Source: Ehretia macrophylla (lineage: Eukaryota > Streptophyta > Magnoliopsida > Boraginales > Ehretiaceae). Taken from it: DNA of 64,000 nt. The stretch lies in contig CM075764.1 in NCBI GenBank assembly GCA_037974665.1, positions 89,894,825 to 89,958,824 on the forward strand. Reading direction: 5' to 3'. A program made the translations under genes and the position numbers. The notes under the pieces were generated by a model, which was given only the letters and a program-made list of their open reading frames with translations, was not told the DNA's origin and made no database searches. Positions 3,335 through 60,811 of the stretch are shown one piece after another (position 1 is the stretch's first letter; the number at the start of each line of letters is the position of its first letter).

Positions 3335-3800
3335 GTTTAAACATTTTTATCGCTCTCACAGTATGTGAAGCTTTAATTACTGCAAGTATGATTTAAATTA
3401 TGACGACTCATTTTCATTAACTATTTAATCATTTTCATCACTATTAAGGTATGTGAAACTTTAATTACTGCAAGTACAATTTAAATTACGACGACCTGTT
3501 TTTATCAACTATTTAACTATTTTTATTGCTATTACAGTATGTGAAGCCTTAATTACTACAAGTACATTTTAAATTACGAGTTTCATCATTTTTTTATCTT
3601 AGGATAGGGAGGCCTAAATGTAATGTCGTATAATATAACTAGTGAGATTCAAACTCACAACCTCTTGTATGCTTAGATAGTAACATTATCACTAGACCAA
3701 GATACGCGATTCCCAAGATGTAGTTATTGTCACGACCCGTTTTCATTAACTATTTAACCATTTTAATTGCTATTACATTATAACGAGTTTCATCATTTTT
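3335..3800. repeat. Degenerate tandem repeat, unit about 85-90 bp
   Basis: Three adjacent copies (about 3335-3585) share the block TATGTGAAGC(T/C)TTAATTACTG, a run close to TTTAAATTACGACGA, and ATTAACTATTTAA. A partial copy resumes at 3730-3800 after a SINE-like insertion. Confidence 0.65.
3597..3712 (-). mobile_element. tRNA-derived SINE candidate
   Basis: The minus strand reads like a tRNA: an A-box-like TGGTCTAGTGATAATG near the 5' end, then GGTTGTGAGTTTGAATCTC containing a B-box-like GTTTGAATC, and a short A-rich 3' end. It interrupts the tandem repeat around it. Target duplications could not be fixed because the flank is itself repetitive. Confidence 0.5.
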
Positions 3801-4547: not shown

Positions 4548-7500
4548 CTAAGCTATTGGGCCAACACCCAATGTTTGAAGATGCTTGCTCAATTGGACGC
4601 TCTCTAACGCTTTAGTGAAGATATCTGCACAATTATCTTTTGTAGGGCAGTACTCCATGTAGATTTCACCTTTCTCGATCAGTTCCCTCACATAGTGATA
4701 CTGAATCTCTATGTGTTTTGTTCTAGCATGAAATACCGGATTCTTTGACATGGCTATACAACTCTGACTGTCACATTTCAACATTGTTGCTTCCTCTATT
4801 GGAATGCCAATATCAGTCATGATGCGTCATAGCCAAACAGCTTCACAGGATGCTACATAAGCAGCCTTGTATTCTGCCTCCGTTGATGAAAGTGCAACGG
4901 TGGGTTGCTTCTTACTAGCCCATGAGATGACTCCACCGCCGAATGTGAATACGTAACCTGTAACAGATTTTCTTGAGTCAATATCACCAGCCCAGTCTGA
5001 GTCACAGTACCCAGATAAAGTATCTCCAGACTTGTATGATATCCCATACTCCAACGTGCCTTTAAGATATTTGAGGATTCGCATCCCTGCTTTCCAGTGA
5101 CTTTGTTTCGGTTTATTTGAAAACCGACTGAGAACTCCCACAGCATAACTAATATCAGGTCTTGTGTTACAAAGAAAGATTAAACTTCCCACAAACCTTC
5201 TGTAGAGCTTGTTATCAACTTGTTCTGAAGGATCGTCAATTGATAACTTTGTATTCACTTCCATCGGGGTGACAACTGGTTTGCACTCGGACATACCAAA
5301 TGCAGTCAAAAGCTCACGAACATATCGTTGCTACGAGATGAAGATAGTATGAGGTTTTTGCCAAACCTCGATTCCTAAGCAATAATAAAGAAGACCAAGA
5401 TTTGATATTTCAAATTCTTGGCTCAACCATTCTTGCGTCTTCCGAATATTATCTTCATGGTCACCAGTGATTACAAGATCATCCACATATAGGACTACAA
5501 TTACCTTCTTTCCTTGTTCACTTAGAACATACAAGTTGGCCTCTGATTTGCTTCTACAGAAACCATGTTGCAAGAAGAAAGAGTCTATACGTTTGTACCA
5601 AGCTCGTGGTGCTTGCTTTAACCCATATAAAGCCTTTTTCAATTTGCAGACTTTTTCTTCTTCACCTGGTATTTAGAAGTCAGGGGGTTGTGCAACGTAG
5701 ACTTCTTCTTCAAGTTGCCCATTAAGAAAAGCTGACTTGACATCCATTTGATGTACAATCCATTCATAATGCGTGGCAGCTGCAACAACTAGCCTGATTG
5801 TTGACATTTTTGCTGTTGGAGCAAAGGTTTCATATACATCGAAACCTTCGACTTGCGAAAATCCTTGTGCTACAAGGCGTGCCTTGTATTTTTCAAGACT
5901 TCCATCTGCCTTGTACTTCACTTTCCAGATCCATTTGGTGCCGATAATTTTTCTGTTCGATGGCTTTTCAACGATCTCCCAAGTATCATTTTTCATGATA
6001 CTATCATACTCGACTTGCATAGCTGCTCTCCAATTTGGATCTGACATGGCTTCCTCCACAGTTACCAGTTCTTTTACTGTCTTGATGATTTGGGTCATCA
6101 AAGCCATGTTTACTAGTTGTTGTCCTGATCTGTTCTGCTCCTCTATTCTCTTTGATCGTCTTAGTCCATCAGGACGTGGACTATCATCAGTAATTCCTGA
6201 ATTTCTTCCATCAAAGAGCTGTTGGAACCACTTCGGTTGTGGCTTCCTTGTGGGTACAACAGGTTGGTCTTCAGTCTCCTCATCATTAGAGACTTCTTCA
6301 TTGTTCAACGGTCGTTGTTCAGGCACTTGGTGGATTACTTCATCAGTTGATGATGAAATGGCGGGACCGCTATCCTCCATTGAGTGTGGTCGCTCATTAA
6401 ACACCATATCTCGGCTTATGATCACCTTCTTGGCCTCTACATCATAGAGTCTGTATGCTTTAGACTCTTCACTATATCCCAAGAAAATGCCCTTCTTGCT
6501 CTTGTCATCCAATTTCTTTCGATTTTCATTTGGAATGTGTACAAAACACTCATACCCAAATTTTCTTAAATGAGACACAGAAGGTTTCGTACCAAAATAA
6601 GCCTCATTAGGAGTCTTATTGTTGAGTGCCCTGGTTGAGCACCGATTGAGAATGTATACCTCTGTGTTGACTGCTTCAGCCCAGAATGTGTCAGGTAGGC
6701 CAGCACCTTTCAACATGCATCGAGCCATTTCTACAATTGTTCGATTTCTTCGTTCCATAACTCCATTTTGTTGTGGTGTGTATGGAGCAGTCAATTGGCG
6801 CTTAATCCTAAGCTTGTTGCAGTAGTTGGTGAACTCTGTAGAACAGAATTCCCTCCCACGATCGGTACGAAGTTTCTTCAACTGAGTTGTGTTCCCATTT
6901 GTCATAAGTTTGTGCCACACTTTAAATTTTTCAAGAGCATCAACCTTGTCCCGAAGGAAGTATACCCACATCTTCTTACTATAATCGTTGACTAATAGCA
7001 TAAAGTAGGAAGATCCTCCCAACGCCGTCGTAGTCATTTTTCCGCAGAGGTCAGCATGTACCAACTCTAGAGGAGCCTTTGATTGGTTATGACTCTCTTT
7101 GGGAAATGACTGTCTATGTTGCTTGCCCAGCATACAAGCTTCACATGGTCCTTCAATTTCTTCAATTGAAGGCAAGTCGGCCACCATCTTCTTCTTTTAC
7201 ATTTCCTTTAACACAGGATAGGAAATGTGCCCGAACCTTTCATGCCAAAGTTGACTTGTTTTGGCATCCACGACAGCAGAAAGAGAGCTGATTTCGTAAA
7301 GATTATTTTTGCGAATACCTTTACTCACGATATTTTGATCCTTGTCAAGAATCAAAGCTTCCGTCTTCTTGAACTGCACTTCTAGATCATTATCTGTAAT
7401 AGCAGCTACAGATAGCAAATTTCTGGTAATCTGGGGTACAAAGAGTACGTTGGACAGCTTCTTGCTTCCTCCATCTTTAGACCCGAGCGAGATGGTTCCA

Positions 7501-8597
7501 GTGCCCTCAACGGGACACCTAGCATTATTCCCGACGATAACATTCATTGGTTCTTGTAGAGGTTTTATGGAGTCATATAACTCCTTCTTGCTGGTCATGT
7601 GTCGGGAAGCTCCACTATCTAACACCCATGCACTTGTTTGATGTACATGTACGCTAGTACACGTTTCCTCCGATACATCTGTTACAGTAAACAGATGCAC
7701 TTCCGTTTCAGCCGTATTGGCAGATTCTTTATTTCTCCAATTTGGCTTTAAAGTTCCGTTCTTCTCGTCATGGATTCGTTTCCTGCAATCTTTGACAGCA
7801 TGACCTTTCTTATTGCAGTAGTAGCACGATCCAGAGAACGTCTTTTTCTTTGCTTTCTTTTTTTTTTCTTGGTTACTCCTCGCCTTGGCTGTAAAGGTAG
7901 AGTCAAGTTGATTTTCTTTGCTCCTCAGCCTCATCTCCTCCTCCATCAACATGGCAGTGAATTCTTCAAACGTCAAAGGAGGAATGCGAACTTGTGTATT
8001 GAGTGCTGTCACAAGGCCGTCAAATTTTGGAGGCAACACTCTAATGCACCTTCAAGCTAGTTCCTCGGCTGATTTGGCAATACCAACTGCAACCATTTGA
8101 TCACGTAGGTTTTTCATCCTACTGATAAATGACTCAACTGCTTCATCTTCACTTAATCTCTCAGCAGCTAACTGATTCTCCAAGTTCTGAATGCGAGTCT
8201 AGTTCCTTGTTTCATATTGATTTCTCAGTATGTTCCAAGCTTCAGTTGCCTTGGTTGTGTGTTGAATTAGAGTAAGGACGGAATCTTGAACACTTGTTAC
8301 AATTGCACAAAGTGCATCAGCATTTCGTCTCCTCCATTCTTTAACAAGCTGAGGATCTGGAGGTGTGACCTTTTTTGTGTCATCTTCAGCACGAACTGCA
8401 ACTGGTTCTGTATCTGTGCCTAACACTGTATCAAGGAGTTCGTAGGAGTCCAGAACTGTAGTGATTTTGAGCTTCCACAAAAGATAGTTCGTGCCATCAA
8501 GCTTTCCTTCTGTGAAGGTAGGGGGACGGATACGAATTGTCGGTACTAAACCGGAACTAGAACTGGTAGAAGAAGAACTAGCACCTTGAGTAGTCAT
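4548..8597 (-). pseudogene. Copia Gag-Pol polyprotein with six in-frame stops
   Basis: A single frame of 1,350 codons from ATG 8597 to TAG 4548. Domains in order: Gag (FTEGKLDGTNYLLWK near residue 30), CCHC knuckle CYYCNKKGHAVKDC, protease WVLDSGASRHMT, integrase zinc site (LWHERFGH and CEACMLGK) and core (LVHADLCGK), RT (ARLVAQGFSQ, LKKALYGLKQAPRAW, YVDDLVITG), and RNase H ([34 protein letters not shown]). Stops lie at about 8199 (TAG), 8052 (TGA), 7197 (TAA), 5673 (TAA), 5331 (TAG) and 4827 (TGA), with no frameshift. At least five are explained by CAG, CAA or CGA to a stop by C-to-T change. Confidence 0.95.
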
Positions 8598-13500: not shown

Positions 13501-14157
13501 TCACTTCCAAACTTTGCTAGCTATAGTTGCTATTGTATGTGCTCAAGCTTACGCCACCAACTACCCGCACACTTTGGTGCGATAACTTTGGAGCCACAAA
13601 CCTCATGGCCAATCCACTTAACCAAGCGCGCACTAAACACATTGAAATCGACATACATTTTGTTCGCGAGAATGTGTCATCAAATGAGCTCCAAGTTCGT
13701 TTTATTTCTAGGGAAAAATTTCACAAATAGTCTATATTGTTACCCAATTGTTTCAGTTTAATCTCTATTATTTGTAAAAAAAAATTCTAATTTCGTCTCT
13801 ATTGTTTAAAATTTCTCAATGTCGTCCCTATTATTTTTCAAAAAGTTTTAATTTTATCCCTATTATTTTTAAAAAGTTTCAATTTTGTCCCTATTATTTT
13901 CTTAAAGTTTCAAATTCGTCCCTATTATTTAAGGACTAAATTAAAATTTTTTGAGAAATAATAGGGACGAATTTGAAATTTTTTTAAAATAATAAGGACG
14001 AAACTGAAACTTTTTGGCAAACAATAAGGACGAAATTGAAAAATTTTAAACAATAGGGATGAAATTAAAACTTTTGAAGAAACAATAGGGACCAAACTAA
14101 ATTTTTTTTCAAACAATAGGGACTAAATGTGAGATTTTCCCTATTTCTACATTGGAT
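13501..14157 (+). pseudogene. Copia RNase H C-terminal fragment, interrupted by a MITE
   Basis: The plus strand reads [30 protein letters not shown] and NELQVRFIS, the conserved end of Copia RNase H. After the MITE (13711-14141) the frame resumes TLD-stop-stop-TD, where intact elements read TLDQxTDxxTK. The fragment is 5'-truncated and ends within about 15 bp of the MITE. Confidence 0.8.
13711..14141. mobile_element. Palindromic MITE, copy 2 (431 bp), TSD TATTTCTA
   Basis: Ends are GGGAAAAATTTCACAAAT and, in reverse complement, GGGAAAATCTCACATTTAG. The 8-bp duplication TATTTCTA lies at 13703-13710 and 14142-14149. The body is two opposed arrays of about 30-bp units based on GTCCCTATTATTT. 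Removing the element with one duplication restores the Copia reading RFIS-TLD. Confidence 0.85.
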
Positions 14158-38938: not shown

Positions 38939-39503
38939 CTTTTCTAGATATATCACCATGCACATACAAAACTAGAGGTGAATGTACATGGGGGACAGTG
39001 GGATCGGTAACTGGCTTAGGAAAATATTAATTTTTTTATATATATTTTTAAAAAAAATTAAGATATTTATGTATTTTTAATTAAAAAATTAAAAAAAATA
39101 TCATGTTATCCTTTATGATATGCGAAAGTATCACTTTACCCCTTGTATTCGTAAAATTTTAAAAAAATTCTGATCTCACATTATTCCTTTTATATCTCTT
39201 TTAAATTATTAAATGACGTTTATACTCTTTTATAATTTATATATTTTTTTTTTCATTTCCACTCATTTACCACTAAATAAAAAAATAAACAAAAATAAAC
39301 AAAAAAAAAAGAGACCATATTCCCCAACTCCCACCCCCCACCCGTCAGGCCCCTCCTTTCCGACTCCCACTCCCACTCATGCCTTCTAGGTTGGATCAGA
39401 AGGCATGTTAATACCTTCTGCAAATTTCAGACTGCAAACCACTTCCCTTGCGATCATACATTCTTTAGGATTTTCATAGATTTATCCTTTACTTTGGTTG
39501 CAG

Positions 39504-39859
39504 AGGTCCATCGCATCATCAACAAGCCGAAGAATAGCAATTCGATTTGCAGATCTCAAACAAAGAAGATATTGGTTGCCTCTCATGGTATGCTTAGTTT
39601 TAGTTGTTTAAATCTCCCTTGTTTCTCTATTTCTTTTCATTTCAATCATGGCTTAAGGATATCAAGCTTATTATTTTTTTTTTTTTGCTACACTGATCTG
39701 TTTATTTTGCAGATAGGAATTGGATTATTGGTCTTGCAGCAGCTAAGTGGAACTAATGGTGTCACTAAAATTTTTGAACTGTTTATTCTGCAGATAGGAA
39801 TTGGATTATTGGTCTTGCAGCAGCTAAGTGGAGCTAATGGTGTCACTAAAATTTTTGAA
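39504..39859 (+). pseudogene. Captured ERD6-like sugar transporter exons
   Basis: Exon A (39504-39587) follows a TTGGTTGCAG acceptor and reads RSIASSTSRR then FADLKQRRYWLPLM, ending ATG|GTATGC. After a 125-bp intron with a polypyrimidine tract and TTTTGCAG, exon B (from 39713) reads IGIGLLVLQQLSGTNGV. Together they match the monosaccharide transporter segment LKQRRYW(F/L)PLMIGIGLLVLQQLSGINGV of ERD6-like (MFS) proteins. Exon B stops matching after NGV, and the usual LFYSS is missing before IFE. No other transporter sequence is present. It is a fragment, not a functional gene. Confidence 0.8.
39698..39859 (+). repeat. 81-bp tandem duplication of exon B with its 3' splice site
   Basis: Units 39698-39778 and 39779-39859 each contain CTGTTTATT(T/C)TGCAG and IGIGLLVLQQLSG codons. 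81 is divisible by three, so the frame continues. A shorter third echo (GGAGCTAATGGTG...AAAATTTTTGA) follows to about 39920, then GGAGGGA repeats to about 39970. Confidence 0.95.
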
Positions 39860-40313
39860 TTAGCAGACCCGAGGAGGGAGGAGGGTGGAGCTAATGGTGA
39901 AACTAAAATTTTTGATTTACCAGACCCGAGGAGGGAGGAGGGAGGAGGGAGGAGGGAGGAGGGGGAGGGAAGGTGGTGGCTGACGGGTGGGTGGCTGACG
40001 AGTGGGTGAGGGATAGGAAGATGGTTTTTTATTTATTTTTTATTTTTTATTTTTAGTAATAAATGGGTGGAGATGAACCAAATATATATATATATATTAA
40101 AAAATGGTAAAAATATCATTTAATAGTTTAAAAGAGATATATTTATTACATTCAATACCTTTCTTGTCAGTGTAACATATATCTTGCTAATAAAATAAGA
40201 TAAAATAGTATTTAGATACCTATAATTTGGCAAGATACACCAATTCAATTGAGGTAAGATATATATATATATTTTTTTCAAATGAAATTTTATTAATAAA
40301 AAAATAAAGTACA

Positions 40314-43300
40314 TTATCCTACCCCAACAGTAGGTTTGTCAGTAATGATAAGCCTAGAAAGAAGATCAAGTACATTTAATAACCAGTAAAAAGGTAATGA
40401 ATTGTGACGAATCTGGTTAGCAATCCAATCAGCAGTGACATTAGCTGTTCTTCTAGTGAGAGTGATGCGAAAATCATTCCTTCTTGTCAAAGCCAACTGA
40501 ATGTCGGTGATGATTGAATCAATCTTCCAATTGTGGCAAGTTCTTTGAAATGAGAGGGCTTGGTAAACCTCCTCGCAATCAGTCTCAATAACAACACTCT
40601 CATTGCCATAAAAGCTTGCAAGATTGATAGCGTTAAGCATGGCTAAGGCTTCAACTTGTTGAGGGAATTCGCAGAGTGTATTGAAGGCGAGACCATTGGC
40701 CAAGGCACCTTCATGGTTCCTAATGGCTGCAATTCCTGCATTATTGCCTTCGGATGCAAAGGAGGCATCACAGTTAATTTTGAGCGCGCCTCTATCAAGG
40801 GGAATCCACCTAGTTGGGATGAGCAGTTGAGGAGGTGGATTTCCATGAGTGTTTATATTTGTAACCAAGTTACTCACAACTCCTCTGTATTCCAAGTTGT
40901 ATTGGTTAGCTGCTGCGACTGTCTTGATTGGGCAAGTATTGATCCTATCGAACAAAAAGGAATTGCGGCTCTTCCATATTTGCCAATATAAGTGTGCAAT
41001 GATAGATTCTGCATGCCCTTTTTCATATCCAGTCTCACGACATCTTTTGAGTATGTCTAAATACCACACATCAAATCTGGTGATAGAAGCCTCATCTGAA
41101 CAGAATTGCAGGGGCGAGGCAAGCCTACAGTGTTTGCTCCATGGACAAAGAAGTAACAAATGTTCGATTGTTTCCGAAGAAGAGTTACAGATCTTATAGA
41201 GCGGGCTGTTTGAGCACTTCTTTTTGCACTTGTTCTCTTCTGTTGCAAGGAGGTTTTTGCATGCCTTCCATATAAAAGGCATTAAGCTTTGCAGGAGCTT
41301 TAACATTCCAGATAGTTCGCCAAAGATGCTTGGGGAAAAGGTATGATGATCCGGGATTGGAGTCAAACCTTGGGTTGGCAATCTTGAGGCAACAGTAAGC
41401 ATTTTTGACTGAGTAGTTTCCCGATTTGGTGTGCGGCCAAACAAGAGTGTCCTCATTTGAGTTTGTCGAGAGATAAATGCTAAGAATACTTGCTTGATTA
41501 CTTCTGTCGAATAGTTGATGCATCAAATTATAATTCCATCTATTATCTATAATGAGCTCATTGACTGTCTTGAGGTTACAGTTGGGAGTCTTTTGGGTGA
41601 ATCAGTTCTTTGAGGTCCACTGGTTGACCCAAATATTGATCCGGCTACCATCACCGACCAGCCAAAGAGCTTCTTTTTTAAGAAGATCTTTCCTTGTAAT
41701 AAGGCTTCTGAATGCCCATGAAGGTCTTCTACCCACCTTTACATTCCAGAAATCGGCATTGGGGTGATATTTTCCTTTAATGATCTTGGCAACCAGAGAG
41801 GTGGGATTCTTCAAGATCCTCCAGGCTTGTCCTGCGAGAAGCGAGATATTCATAAGTTCAAAATTCCTAAATCCTATTCCCCCATCCCATTTGGAGGTCG
41901 TCATCGTACTCCAGTTAATCCATCTAATGCTTCCTTTGCCGTTCTTGCTCCACTAGAAATTAGAGACAATAGAGCAAAGTTTTTTGCATATGGTTTTAGG
42001 AACAAGCAGGAAGGACATTAAGTAGCTAGGGATAGCTTAAAGGAAAAATTTTATAAGAATTTCCTTGCCTCCTTCCGAGAAGAATTTTTCTTTCCAACCC
42101 TGAACTTTGGAAAGAGTTTTGTCAAGAAGACAATTAAGCGCAGTAGTTTTGGAACTACCTCAAACCGAGGGTATACCTAAGTATTTCCCCATGTCTTGGT
42201 TGCAATTGACCTGAAGAATAGCACTAATTTCCTCTTTGACAAATTGAGGAGTATGCAAGCTAAAAGAAACACCAGATTTGCTTTTGTTTATACTTTGTCT
42301 AGTGGCAAAACAATAGTGATACAAGATGTCATTGAGGGTAGATGCTTCATGGGCATTGGCCTCAAGGAAGAATAATGAATCGTCTGCGAACAGCAAATAT
42401 GTCACCGAAGGGCAGTGTTTAGAGATTTGAATGCCTTTAAGAATACCTCTAGTAGAATGGTGGCGTAAGAGCATAGAGAGGGCTTCAGTGAGGATGGAGA
42501 AAAAGAAAGGAGAAAGGGGATCCCCTTGTCGAATCCTTCTTTGTGGCGAGAAAGGTGGCAATAGTTCCCCATTGACAGAAATGCGGTATTGAACAGAGGA
42601 AATGGATTACATGATAAGTTTAATCCAATGAGGATGAAAACCCATTTTATCAAGCAATTTTTTTGGAAAATCCCATTCCACACGGTTGAAAGCTTTGTTC
42701 ATATCCAATTTGAGTGCAGCTTTAAAAGATTTTTTACTTTTGAGAGTTTTGAGATAGTAGGATACTTCCTGGGCGATAAGAAGATTGTCTTGGATAATAC
42801 ATGCGGCAATGAAAGCGCTCTGGTTTTGGGATATGATATCATTCATTAATGGTTTAAGGCAAAGAACAAGAACCTTGGAGATTACCTTGTAGAGGAAATT
42901 TGAACATGAAATAGGCCTATATTGAGAAATATTTTCGGGATTAGACACTTTTGGGATCAGAGCAATTGTAGTATGATTCAAGTCTCCTAAAGATTTAGCT
43001 TTTGTGAAGAACTCATTGACCATGGCAAACACATCATGCTTAATCAAATCCCAATACTTATGAAAAAAGGTATCTGTGAGGCCGTCGGGGCCTAGATATT
43101 TGGAGGGACTGAGGCTCCAAGCAGCAACCTTTACCTCTTCCATTGAAAAGGGTTTCATTAGTTCTTCGTTCATTACAGTGGTGACTACCTGCGAGACATA
43201 GTTGAGGACCAAGTTAAGATTCCTTGGTCCAACTGAAGAGTACATATTATAGAAATGATTTTGTATAGAAAATTTAATTGCCTCAGGATCATCAATCCAA

Positions 43301-44454
43301 TTTCCGTTGGGTGAAAGAATTCTCAGTATACGATTTCTTGCTCTTCGTTAGATTGTGCACGCATGGAAGAATTTCGTGTTCTTGTCTCCATACCACAGCC
43401 ATTGGATTCTTGATCTCGCTGCCCAATACTGTTCTTCCCTACTCCAGAGTCCTTCAATCTTGTCGTTGAGTTCATTGATTGTGCCTTGGTTAAAAGGTGA
43501 CCACGGCTGATTATGGAGTGTGGTGAGCTGTTCTTTCAGAGAGTTGATGAGCTTTCTGTTGTTGGGGAAGTATTACTTACTCTAGTTAATGAGACTGTTA
43601 GTGCAGAATTTTACCTTTTTGCAAGTCAGGTTAACACCTTTTTTGAAGGGGGCGAACTTGTGGTGGTTCCAACTGTTGTCAATGGTTCTGCTGCAGCTTT
43701 CTTCTTCTGTCCAGTACGACTCAAACCTGAATGATTTCTTCCTTTTTTTTAGACCAATAGATGTTGAGAGAATTATAGGGATGTGGTCCGAGCCCACAAG
43801 TGGATGGTTAGCCTCCCAAGCATCCGGATAAATGAAGCTCCAAGTCGTAGTGCAAATAGCCCTATCTAGTTTTTCTTTGACATTCTCCTCGCCTTGCCGG
43901 TTGTTGCTCCAAGTAAAGTGGCACCCCTTGGATTCAATATCAAGCAGCTCATTATGATTGAGAAAATCCTGAAATCTTTGGATCTTGATATTCGATTTTT
44001 GCTTCCTTCCAAGCTTCTCTAATTGATGTTTGATATCATTGAAGTCCCCAATGAAAAGCCATGGGATATTTTTGTCTAGTTCAAGAGCACTAATCTCATT
44101 CCAGAGAGATTTACGATCCTTGAATTTGGGACAAGCATGAAGAGAAGTAAATTTTCATTTGTGAGTATCTCCAGTGGTGACTGATGCGTGAATAAAACTT
44201 TGATGATGTCTGATGACATTGAGGTTGATATCTTTTGACCAAAGCAGTGTTAATCCTCCTGAAAAGCCAACATGATCGACAAAAAAAGTGTTATCAAAAC
44301 CCAACTTTTTGAAGACTTTAGTAAGCTTATGATTTTTAATCTTGGTTTCAAATAAACAAACTAAATTGGGCCTAAATTGAGAGACTAAGTCTCTGAGGTT
44401 TTGAACTGTCAAAGAAATGCCCATTCCTTGACAGTTCCAGCTTAAGACAATCAT
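40314..44454 (-). pseudogene. LINE ORF2: endonuclease, reverse transcriptase, RNase H
   Basis: From ATG 44454 (MIVLSWNCQGMG, endonuclease start) through FIGDFNDIK and SDHIPIIL, RT (SPSKYLGPDGL, FHKYWDLI, QYRPISCSN, RIRQGDPLSPFFF, the catalytic box YLLFADDS), the zf-RVT region (LWRTIWNVKAPAK, then ETIEHLLLLCPW), to RNase H (LKINCDASFASEGN, VEALAMLNAI, IETDCEEVYQAL, LPFYW). One frame holds to about 41285, then a one-base shift moves it to another frame that ends at 40314. Stops near 44155, 43582, 43348, 42607 and 42160 mostly fit TGG to TGA or CAA to TAA. Confidence 0.92.
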
Positions 44455-44507
44455 TGGGCCTGCTGGGGCTATTTAGAAACAGACCCCAGCTTGTCATTGG
44501 TTGCCCT

Positions 44508-46009
44508 TTAGGCATGAGAGTTTTTTGCATAGGAATTTTTGTGGCTTGTAGCAGATTTTGAAGGTAAGTACCAGTCCTTGTGTAGATGTTGTTCAATTGG
44601 AATATCGAACAAGAGTTTTTTGCTTTTGGGAGAGGTGCTATTGGGTTTTGGTGGGGTGTTTAGGTGTTGGTTTGTTTTTCTTCTTTTTGGCGGAGTAAGC
44701 TTTAGTTCTGAGGTGGGTTTTCGTTTGCAGGTTTGGGCAGATTGTAGGTTTGGTGAAGGTTGGGTAGGGGTTTTTTATGCTGGGCTTTTAGTAAGATGGT
44801 TTTTGGAAGTTGGTGTTGGGCTTGATTGTGCTTGGGCTGAGGAGGAGAAAGTTGATATGGAAGTAGAGTTAGAAGAGCCTAGCTCGGAGACATGCGTCTT
44901 TCTGAAGTTTGTGGGCCTCGTTTTTTGGGCTGAATTTGAGGATTTTGGGGTGGTTGGGCTTTGGGTTTCATTTTGTTTTTTGATGGGTTGGCTTGATTGG
45001 CTTTGCAATGTGTTTTTCAGAGAAAGAGATTTTGAATTTACTGAGCTTGAATTGACAGGATGGGGGCTTTGTTTCGAGCCGTATGCTTTTGTAGTAGAGT
45101 CAGAGCTCTTCCTGTAAGATTTTCCTTTTTCGTGAGAGGTTTTCTGTACTTTCTTCTGATGTTCTAGTTCCAGTGTGGACTTTTCCAAAATTGGGGAGAA
45201 AGTCCTGCTACCCACTTTTTGGGATGATTCTGGTGCATGCGCCTCCCGAGTAGGTGGTGGAGCCTGATGAGACATCTTTAGAGTTCTTTTCCAGCTAGGA
45301 GAGGAGATCATCCAAGGCCCTAGGACCTTCGTCTTATGCGAAGGTGAAGATGCAGAGGTGTTCAAACTATGAGAAGGGCAAGATTCAGTATCATGACTTA
45401 TAAGGCCACAATTGTGGCAGAAACCACTCAATTTTTCATACTTAAATCTGATCCAGAGATCAGGAAGGCCCTCCCTGGGGAGAGGAAATCATGGAACGAG
45501 GGGCTTGCGGATATCCCATTTGATCCTGATACAGATTATGGTGTTGCGGCCGAGCTTGCCTTCTTCTATGGGATCCATTTCCTCCATTTCTCCCAAGTAA
45601 GAGCGGATATGCATTGCATTGTAATTGGTGATGTAGCTGAATGGGAGGCTATGTATTTGAATCCAGAATGATGTGTGGAAGAGCTCCAGTTCTGGTGCTG
45701 TGAGATTTGGCTTCCAAGGTTGCAATAGGAAGTGGAAACCCTGTACGCCCATAGTCTGTGATTCCAAGCCTTTTCTTTGTCCTCTTGAGTTTTGAATTCA
45801 AGGATGAATGTGTTTAGCTTGAGTGGGATTAGTTCCACTTTGTCTTGGAGGCCCCAAGATCTGTTGATAGTGTTTCTGATTATTCCAAGGGCAACATGGG
45901 TGTCAGTGACCAGTCTGCCAACTAAGGCATGATTGACAGTGTGAACACCTTGTTCCAGAAGTGGAATAAGTTTTATTTTGTTAATATCGGGGTTGGATGA
46001 TGAAGCCAT
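44508..46009 (-). pseudogene. LINE ORF1: DUF4283 protein with CCHC zinc knuckle
   Basis: ATG 46009 opens MASSSNPDINKIKLIPLLE. A DUF4283-type fold follows (VGRLVTDTHVALGIIRNT, then FHFLLQPWKPNL and FHTSFWIQIHSLP), then the knuckle FCHNCGLISHDTESC (C-x2-C-x4-H-x4-C) and a Ser/Pro/Lys-rich tail ending near 44508. There is a frameshift near 45745, a TGA near 45489 where Trp is expected, and a TAA at 44775. ORF1 of plant L1 packages the element RNA. Confidence 0.85.
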
Positions 46010-48932
46010 AGTGAAGTGAGTTCAGAGTGAGGAACAATAATGATGGGCGAAGAAGAAGTGATATGAGAGTGGATGATGAGTAATTTTTTGGTCAGCGAGT
46101 TAGTTGTGAGTAAATGAGGCTGGAATCAAAAGGAGAAAGCGTTGCAGTGATGAGGGAAGAAAAAGGATGGTAATAAGGATGAGAGAATGACAGAGAAGGT
46201 TGCAGTGATGAGAGAAGATTTAGTAAGGAAGGCGAGGTAAGATACTTCAACATTATAAATTCTTTGCTATCATCTTGAATACTAAAAGGACCCTTTAAAT
46301 ATCAATAATCAAATCTTGGGGGCATCCAAAGTATGAGCTTTATTGCTTTAATCTTTCTCTTCACACGATGATTGATGAATAAATTTTTCATCTAATAAAT
46401 GCTCGAACTTCAGGTCGAGACACAATTTGATTCTCCAAAAATCTTCCATCATATGTCTGGTATAAATACACCATTTTCTTATGAGAACGCTTCAGGAGTC
46501 TCTCTTACATTAAAACCTCTAACATATGTTTCTCAATAGAAATACATAGGTTGTTGGGATATTAACATATCTTTTCATTTAATGATTTGTTCTAAGACAA
46601 TTATATCATATTCTTACAGAATACTTTCATCCATACAAAAATCTTTGTAATTTAATTGAATACATTTCCTCTGAGGTTTTATGCTTCAAGCATTCTCAGC
46701 CCTTCAATGGCTTTTACACAACGGGGTCTATAAGGATATATTATTACCACATTCATAAGACGCATATAAAATCTTTTCAAAAATTTTCAGGCTCATTAGA
46801 AATAAATATAATTTCATCCACCAGAAGAGAATATATCTCTTTATTATTTTAATTTCAAGGTGTAACCACATAGCGCACTAGTCTATTTCTTGCTTATGTT
46901 GTCCACTTTAAGCAGTTTAAGAGCTACCCAACTTATGATACATTTCTTGAACTTTATAAGCAATATGTGATTATTTTATTACACACCCTCTTAATCCCAT
47001 ACACAAAAGTGTATTGACCTCCATAGTCCAAAAACTTTACATATAATGAGAATTTGATTATGCCTGAATTGCGTTTTTCTATTTTGGCCAATCATTTCTT
47101 TGTTGACATTCTTGAAAAAATGAACTTTTTATTCAAGATCCTCACTTTTATTGATTAGATCAGTAACTACTGTATATTCAAATATTTGATTATGATCAAA
47201 TTCTATTTTCAATCCATTATTTTTCAGTAGTATATAACTGAGTAAGATTTCTTTGTTCTTAATATTTTAGATATGCACATCATATTTAGGTATCTGATAC
47301 TCTCTTGGTGTAAATTTTTTTCAGTTACATTTTTTACTTGTTTTTTGTGTCTTGATATCTTCAGGATATCAAACACTTTCAAGATACCAGCTTGCTTTAT
47401 TTTGCTCCTTTTTCTTTTGGAACCAATAGTTCTACCATGCTTCAGGCGTATAATATACTCATTTCAATAACATTACTTTGAAAAGAAGCACTTAAATTTG
47501 GTATTGTGACTCAGTCACTTTTAAATCTGAATGCATCTTTGCAATTTCTTTGCAAATAAATATTTTTTTAAACTTTCAGTTCATATTGATTGTGCGAGGA
47601 TCAATATTTTGATGCATTGCATAACAATTCTCATTGGTCCAGCTTTTATTTTTCTCCCTTGATGCTAGAATCTTTATTTCAACAATTAGAAAAAATACTA
47701 TAAAAACAACTTCAGTCAATGATTAAAAATATTCAATAATTGACGAATATTTAAATAGAAGTTCCCAATCTCTTTGTAAACTCATCTTATTGTGTTGTGG
47801 TGAAGGACTGTAACATATATAGCACACTCATATTTTCTAAGATGAGATATTTTATATCTTGACCAATGGGGAGTATTTATATAAGAAGTTGGACTTGCTA
47901 GAATTAGTGCTAACACATGTAATATAATATGTCCCAAAGCAAAACTAGGCAACCTTATAAACATTGGACTAGTACTTCGCTGCAAGCGATTAGTAAAAGA
48001 TTATGTCAAACTCATATATATCCCCTTGAATTTATCTTATTCAATATCAAGTTATTTAGGGATTGCCTAATAATTATTTTTCTTTGGGAACAAGCAACAC
48101 ATAAAAATTCATTTGTAAAAGAATCATCTGATTCTTTAATGGGTGTTTATTTAAATTTTCAAGAACTTTCTCATCATTATCACACCCATATGACCTACCA
48201 GTCATGCCAAAGAACAAATAGTTCTTAGATCAAATAACTTATGGTCATTCAAAGTATTGGATTATGTCAAATTTATATATAATATAATCCAATCTAGAAG
48301 ATAGAGTTGGTAATTTTTTCATTGTAGACTTTTTGCCAGAGATAAGCGACATAATATAGAGATATTCTCCATTTCTTTCACATGTGGTCTTAATATGAGA
48401 ACCATTAAAATATATATTTCTAAAATATAATAGACTGCTCTATGATCTAATAGAATACAAATCATTACTTATTTTCAGTTATATCTATTTAGGAAACATA
48501 ATATACGTTTTTGAAAACCTTCAACAGTTCACTGAAGTTCTTCAATAACCTTCAATTGAATGTTCAGTAAATCCATATTTTTAAAAAAAAAAGGAATAAT
48601 AAATAAAGTGGCATATATACAAATATTAAATTCTTGCAACATGATACTTCGAGATAAACTCTAATTCATAGTAAGGGAAAATATAAATTATTAAAGTAAA
48701 AAATAACATTATAGTAATTGCCACTATATGAATGCTCTTGATCATCTTAAGAGTAGAACGAATGTCTAAAAGTTAGTGTATATGTGAATACTAGTATCAT
48801 TCTAATTTAAATTACACCATAAGAATGATAAAAACGTCAATAGATAGTGTACTTACACACAATATGTAAGACATAATCATATATCTTTGATTGCACAATG
48901 CATACGTTAAACCACTAAAAGCTTATATGCAC

Positions 48933-60013: not shown

Positions 60014-60290
60014 CACAACATCAAAATATTATGAGTGAGATTTAACGGTTGTGAATTTCTCACATTATTTTATTATAATTGTATTAATAATTTATAACTA
60101 TTGGATCTTACTAATAACATCATTCTCAATAGTTGTAAACTGTCCACATCATTTTATTATAATTGTATTAGTAATTTATAACTATTAGAACTTCCTCATA
60201 ATATCTTAATAATGTTATAAGTAGATCCATTAACCAGATAAACAACAATGTAATACAATAATATACTTTTATGTGTTTATGTTAAAAAAT

Positions 60291-60685
60291 GGAAAAATTG
60301 CAAAAATGGTCTCTATTGTTTCTCTAAAATTTTAAATTCGTTCCCATTATTCAAATTAGTCAATTTAGTCCCTATTATTTTTTAAAATTTTTAAATTCGT
60401 CCATATTGTTCAAAATTAGCCAATTTAGTCCTTATTATTTTTCAAAACATTTTAATTTAGTCACAATTATTTAAATATTAAGGACTAATTTGAATTTTAT
60501 ATGAAAATAATCGAAACTAAATTTATTTTTTTAAAAAATAATAGGGACTAAATTGGCTGATTTTCAACAATAGGGATGGAGTTGAAATTTTTAAAAAATA
60601 ATAAGAACTAAATTGATTAATTTTAAATAATAGGGATAAATTTAAAATTAAAAAAAATAATATAGACTATTTGTGCTATTTTTCC
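60291..60685. mobile_element. Palindromic MITE, copy 3 of the family
   Basis: Ends are GGAAAAATTGCAAAAATGG and, in reverse complement, GGAAAAATAGCACAAATAG. The same opposed arrays of TAGTCCCTATTATTT-type units as in the copies at 12620 and 13711. The target duplication is unclear in an A-rich flank. Confidence 0.75.
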
Positions 60686-60811
60686 AATAAAAAAAGACAG
60701 CGTCAAATATCAAACAAAAAAAACTAGTGTTGCTATAAGTTTTTGGAGAAGAAGAGATAAGTATATGATTTGAACTGCAAGGCTCAAGCATCTAAATACA
60801 GAGTTCTGAAT

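Follow-up and report, generated by a model that had tools for sequence, protein, structure and literature searches.

A probable Pack-MULE, truncated on its right side, carrying part of an ERD6-like sugar transporter gene in Ehretia macrophylla

The window analyzed here, a stretch of 64,000 nucleotides of contig 1 (89894825-89958824), contains what is very probably a Pack-MULE: a non-autonomous Mutator-like element, old and truncated. The element belongs to a dispersed TIR family, its left end is preserved and its right side is truncated, and its cargo derives from an ERD6-like sugar transporter gene, with an intron kept. All comparisons were made within this one genome, which comprises 1.58 Gb in 20 contigs. 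The features of the element and its borders, with their positions in the window, strand and basis, are as follows.

39010-39092, plus strand: left flank, a dispersed and often tandem repeat broken by the left end of the element (many genome matches)
39093-39383, plus strand: left TIR, full length, with the outer end at about 39093 and the inner end approximate (family alignment and consensus match)
39384-39859, plus strand: cargo captured from an ERD6-like sugar transporter gene; internally, 81 bp of it are duplicated in tandem and 12 bp are deleted (blastn to the contig-11 locus L044)
39504-39587, plus strand: captured loop exon (RSIASSTSRRIAIRFADLKQRRYWLPLM; ...LKQRRYWLPLM) (translation; 91.9% identity to the contig-11 gene over 39503-39588)
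39588-39712, plus strand: retained GT-AG intron (91.5% identity without gaps to the corresponding contig-11 intron)
39713-39778, plus strand: first copy of the captured TM7 exon (IGIGLLVLQQLSGTNGV...), which lacks 12 bp present in the contig-11 gene
39775-39859, plus strand: second copy, with the intron tail at 39775-39793 and the TM7 exon from 39794 (tandem duplication)
39828-39941, plus strand: two tandem 57-bp copies in which the end of the cargo is mixed with inner TIR-like sequence (repeat search)
39943-40141, minus strand: right TIR with the outer 115 bp or so gone (pairs with 39191-39387; the consensus match ends at 40140, which is consensus position 117)
40137-40141, no strand: breakpoint at which the right TIR gives way to a dispersed repeat unrelated to it (other copies of the repeat extend upstream of here)

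Results

The arms belong to a dispersed family with 9-bp duplications

The first-pass annotation had described two inverted arms around ERD6-like exons, and these were recovered by blastn, which aligned 39191-39387 to the reverse complement of 39943-40141 (E 3.8e-24; 73% identity over 205 columns). The ends that it had given, 39191 and 40141, hold as the limits of arm-to-arm pairing but not as the ends of the element, because the family TIR is about 300 bp long, the left end lies at about 39093 and the right end is lost. The inverted-repeat score of the piece 39093-40160 was 124, compared with a mean of 28 for 41 other window pieces of the same size, one of which scored higher (165) owing to a different repeat at 60290-60686. 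An inverted repeat is no rarity in the window, and the arm pair alone is not special; it is the genome-wide family with 9-bp duplications that makes the pair more than chance.

A pattern of the 33 bases at the TIR end, searched with up to three mismatches, occurred at 174 places genome-wide, whereas the reversed control occurred at none; the further arm copies that the first-pass annotation had proposed to look for are thus many. A genome search with the element yielded at least 129 matches (from the best 40 of 453 candidates), many of which were facing arms a few hundred bases apart, while three were other ERD6-like loci and some were the window itself. Thirty-five facing-arm loci (L009-L043) were examined, and both ends could be scored in 24 of them; the 11 with a missing or weak end (L010, L013, L015, L016, L019, L023, L031, L034, L035, L036, and L042) were left out.

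Target-site duplications, also proposed as a check, were found at the arm copies. The called ends were flanked by an exact 9-bp duplication in 11 of the 24 copies and by one with at most one mismatch in 16, compared with means of 0.0 and 0.135 (maximum 2), respectively, when the right flanks were shuffled between elements. No exact duplication of 6, 7, 8, 10, 11 or 12 bp was present among the 24 copies. The 9-bp duplication had more than one mismatch at the called ends in eight relatives, including L043, in which it becomes exact if the end is shifted by 1 base. Across the 24 copies, the median left arm was 302 bp (the arm search being limited to half the element or 400 bp), the identity between the arms of a copy was 78-89%, and the median element length was 734.5 bp. 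The interiors were mostly short, exceeding 300 bp in only four copies. In the 3-kb member L015, the long insert was rejected as cargo since it resembles a solo LTR by eye.

Long TIRs together with a 9-bp duplication are the mark of Mutator-like elements (MULEs). With its 9-bp duplications and TIRs of more than 100 bp, the arm family is a MULE family, both properties being observed at the level of the family. A survey in tomato took duplications of 9-11 bp as the criterion for MULEs (PMC3310237).

As a separate observation, the 33-base TIR end occurs four times on contig 6, near 56072770, 56111608, 56150345, and 56189269, at a spacing of 38.7-38.9 kb, a regularity that would fit a large unit repeated in tandem.

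The left end is intact and the right terminus is lost

The outer family consensus matched 39096-39166 (81.9% over 72 bp, E 1.6e-14), so that the left end falls at about 39093, about 100 bp to the left of the start in the first-pass annotation. The window departs from the left-flank repeat at 39092, as determined by aligning it with 11 further copies of that repeat; the query of the left-flank search itself stopped at 39092, and the divergence beyond this point was read from the alignment. About 290 bp of the left arm and about 200 bp of the right arm remain in the window.

On the right side, a different dispersed repeat begins at about 40138 (at least 40 matches, from the best 40 of 92 candidates), so the two flanks of the element are two different repeats, from which no empty site could be assembled. 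Other copies of the right-hand repeat have up to about 490 bp in common ahead of the breakpoint, and these are absent from the window. Because these copies continue upstream, the outer right TIR and any duplication beside it are gone, and the missing terminus was not detected elsewhere in the window by a search with the outer consensus (best match after the left arm, E 0.17). Since the right terminus is lost, the MULE class of the window copy is established through its relatives rather than through a duplication of its own. A short stretch shared at the breakpoint, ATAT by eye, would be in keeping with microhomology joining.

The cargo originates from an ERD6-like gene and keeps an intron

Two exons with intact splice borders, and the spliced reading that the first-pass annotation had derived from them, were confirmed: the exon at 39504-39587 is followed by a GT-AG intron and an exon from 39713. 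The proposal that capture took place at the DNA level and not by retrotransposition was likewise upheld, as the intron at 39588-39712 is kept and aligns to the parental intron; its presence rules out a retrogene. A complete ERD6-like donor, which had been suggested as a check, has a near match at 90% in a gene on contig 11. The window positions 39384-39762 aligned with 4811357-4811730 of that contig (locus L044; 90% over 382 columns, blastn) and the second cargo block, 39776-39860, aligned with the same locus at 84%. The same cargo showed 75% identity to a locus on contig 12 (L045) and 73% to one on contig 17 (L046). By these alignments, the contig-11 gene ranks as the nearest relative found among the best 40 of 453 candidates. 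No family TIR was found around it at E 1e-5 in 9.9 kb. The element thus has the characters of a Pack-MULE, namely a fragment of a host gene, a parent without the family TIRs in 9.9 kb, and a kept intron.

The contig-11 locus also contains, in order, what we take to be the other exons of the ERD6-like gene. When its frame pieces were compared with Pfam, Sugar_tr was matched in 4 of 10 and above the cut-off in two, and the piece with the loop exon was not among these; in a comparison with structures, the TM7 piece matched GLUT (best E 0.001) and, less strongly, XylE. The contig-11 and contig-12 loci shared 12 aligned blocks between L044 positions 678 and 8959, and the frames of the former matched all along the latter by tblastn, but matched only the fragment at the contig-17 locus. 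No other exon of the contig-11 gene was found in the 64-kb window with frames of at least 15 residues (other matches had E 0.014 or weaker).

The gap-free identity to the contig-11 gene was 92.4% in the upstream intron, 91.9% in the loop exon, 91.5% in the intron, and 100% over 49 bp in the second exon. The loop exon has diverged as much as the introns, as expected without selection. Among the six differing codons of the loop exon, the window agrees with contig 12 and not with contig 11 in three, the two genes agree with each other in two, and all three sequences differ in one. Given the three codons shared with the contig-12 paralogue, the present contig-11 gene may not be the direct donor; the capture may predate it, or the donor may have been its ancestor or a relative.

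A second copy with ERD6-like cargo was not found in this TIR family among the best 40 of 453 candidates, and movement of the cargo together with the element is for this reason inferred. The contig-17 locus (59552738-59553088) is a second lone ERD6-like fragment consisting of the same two exons without the family TIR. It lies between an unrelated pair of inverted repeats (L046 positions 3416-3693 and 6916-7186), and no flanking duplication was seen there by eye. The search also found no family TIR at a further locus, L079. A search of the literature for sugar transporter sequences in Pack-MULEs brought up work on cacao NLR genes.

Internal duplications preserve an open spliced frame

Two tandem duplications in the element had been overlooked in the first-pass annotation. 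One of 81 bp (39694-39774 and 39775-39855, 96% identity) has as its unit the intron tail and the second exon, and the other is of 57 bp (39828-39884 and 39885-39941, 93% identity). These two duplications and the 12-bp deletion each have a length divisible by three, for which the combined probability by chance is 1 in 27, and consequently the spliced frame is open for 126 residues. The unspliced frame has a TAG 27 bases before the loop exon and no ATG from there to the exon; the only in-frame ATG of the loop exon is therefore its last codon. The longest frame (236 residues, stop-to-stop, 39299-40009) was scanned and had no Pfam family. It runs through the intron and was regarded as a chance frame rather than as coding.

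Other members of the family carry other cargo

Cargo was sought in two of the family loci, L018 and L036. The latter was recovered in full on contig 2 as L074, where both termini are present, and its cargo showed 84% identity to contig 3, 43514610-43515250. At this source, a GDSL lipase profile was matched in three of four frames, ordered along the profile (17.8, 22.0, and 13.4 bits, all below the cut-off of 23.6); in the cargo itself it was matched in one of three frames (12.5 bits, E 0.16). The flanks of this member are runs of A, so the duplication there is uninformative. Contig 2 has two more matches to its cargo, one of 99% over the whole at a distance of 33 kb and one of 98% over 147 bp at 17 kb, which seem to stem from local duplication. 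The cargo of L018, which has no duplication at its called ends (4 of 9 positions agree), showed 90% identity to contig 6, 67202682-67203178, where no coding region was identified. The interior frames of L018 and L030 had no Pfam match above the cut-off (weak matches, E 0.0094 or weaker). Pieces within the family thus match at least three other host loci, that is, ERD6-like, GDSL-lipase-like, and the contig-6 locus.

Transposase and long members of the family

The MULE transposase domain PF10551 is common in the genome, with at least 150 matches above the cut-off (all of the best 150 of 1321 candidates). No member with both these TIRs and a transposase was found. At L084 (contig 3, 32252700-32261020), the TIR ends are 8.2 kb apart, with an 8-of-9 duplication read by eye; this member seems, also by eye, to be long through a nested Copia-like element, and it was rejected as the autonomous partner on account of its Copia-like interior. 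Another member, L085, is about 2.1 kb long and contains more arm pieces inside.

Neighboring repeats in the window

A LINE occupies the minus strand at 40262-46233, with reverse transcriptase and RNase H-like frames above the Pfam cut-off and zf-RVT and endonuclease frames below it. It is flanked by the 11-bp repeat GAGGTAAGATA at 40251-40261 and 46234-46244; other matches of 10-12 bases beside GAGGTAAGATA were taken as chance. The LINE splits a large dispersed repeat (40138-40261 and 46234 to about 50681), both sides of which were matched in 10 of 10 loci (L064-L073); the repeat resumes after 46234, with an overlap of 11 bases in the other copies. Elsewhere in the window, the inverted-repeat element at 60290-60686 has arms of about 152 bp and looks unrelated to the MULE family, a weaker inverted-repeat element is present at 13781-14138, and Copia-like retroelement frames were recognized by eye from the ORF list at 1084-2402 and 4827-8051.

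Discussion

The Pack-MULE-like nature proposed in the first-pass annotation is supported by the 9-bp duplications of the family, the long TIRs, and a cargo that comes from a gene elsewhere. In such a history, a MULE transposase acting in trans would cut the element at its TIRs and reinsert it at a target cut with a 9-bp stagger. As for the gene piece, it was probably copied in as DNA, by gap repair or by template switching between the inverted repeats, both of which are discussed as capture models for animal Pack-TIRs (PMC8277862). Slippage would afterwards have generated the tandem duplications, and a deletion after insertion, or other illegitimate joining, would have removed the right terminus; without that terminus, this copy is probably an immobile fossil now.

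Alternatively, cargo-free, MITE-like MULE arms might flank or adjoin a pseudogene fragment of the ERD6-like gene that was duplicated here otherwise and was never inside the element. The lone fragment on contig 17 demonstrates that other origins are possible, and the lack of a second ERD6-like cargo copy among the candidates compared points in the same direction. Against this, the fragment begins a few bases from where the left TIR ends on its inner side, its right end lies in inner-TIR-like sequence, and two relatives hold other pieces between their own TIRs, which makes such an arrangement very unlikely. Capture by a MULE being the preferred explanation, the TIR could putatively drive expression of the captured exons, and the product, whether a chimeric transcript, an antisense RNA or a small RNA, could affect the parental gene. 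The intact splice sites and the open spliced frame would permit this, and expression of Pack-MULE interiors from TIR promoters has been reported (PMC3310237). The TAG upstream of the loop exon and the position of its only ATG speak against it, as does the equal divergence of the exon and the introns from the contig-11 gene, and we consider it extremely unlikely. It is similarly far-fetched that a putative short chimeric transcript, composed of the loop and TM7 exons with their in-frame duplications and two usable 3' splice sites, tunes the contig-11 ERD6-like gene.

In summary, the window copy of this Pack-MULE-like element most likely has no function today, and both its kind and its fate are ordinary for plant genomes. 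The single copy has no wider importance; capture of this type is the route by which chimeric gene pieces, and also spurious gene calls, arise in plant genomes.

The window copy resembles the Pack-MULEs of rice and the PM-ZIBP family of tomato in its long TIRs, the 9-bp duplications of its family, its intron-bearing host cargo, and its length of about 1 kb; PM-ZIBP-1 is given as 944 bp with a 9-bp duplication (PMC3310237). Unlike these elements, the window copy has no right terminus and its cargo is tandemly duplicated, and whereas PM-ZIBP exists in several copies, one copy with ERD6-like cargo was seen among the best 40 of 453 candidates. The MITE-like members among L009-L043 have the same TIRs, with 9-bp duplications of at most one mismatch in the 16 of 24 copies noted above, and mostly short interiors. 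Pack-CACTA and other Pack-TYPE elements, which have been reported from several superfamilies in rice and maize (PMC8903248), likewise have TIRs and shuffle pieces of genes; they differ in the length of the duplication, which is 5 nt for CACTA and 8 nt for hAT, compared with 9 in the family studied here.
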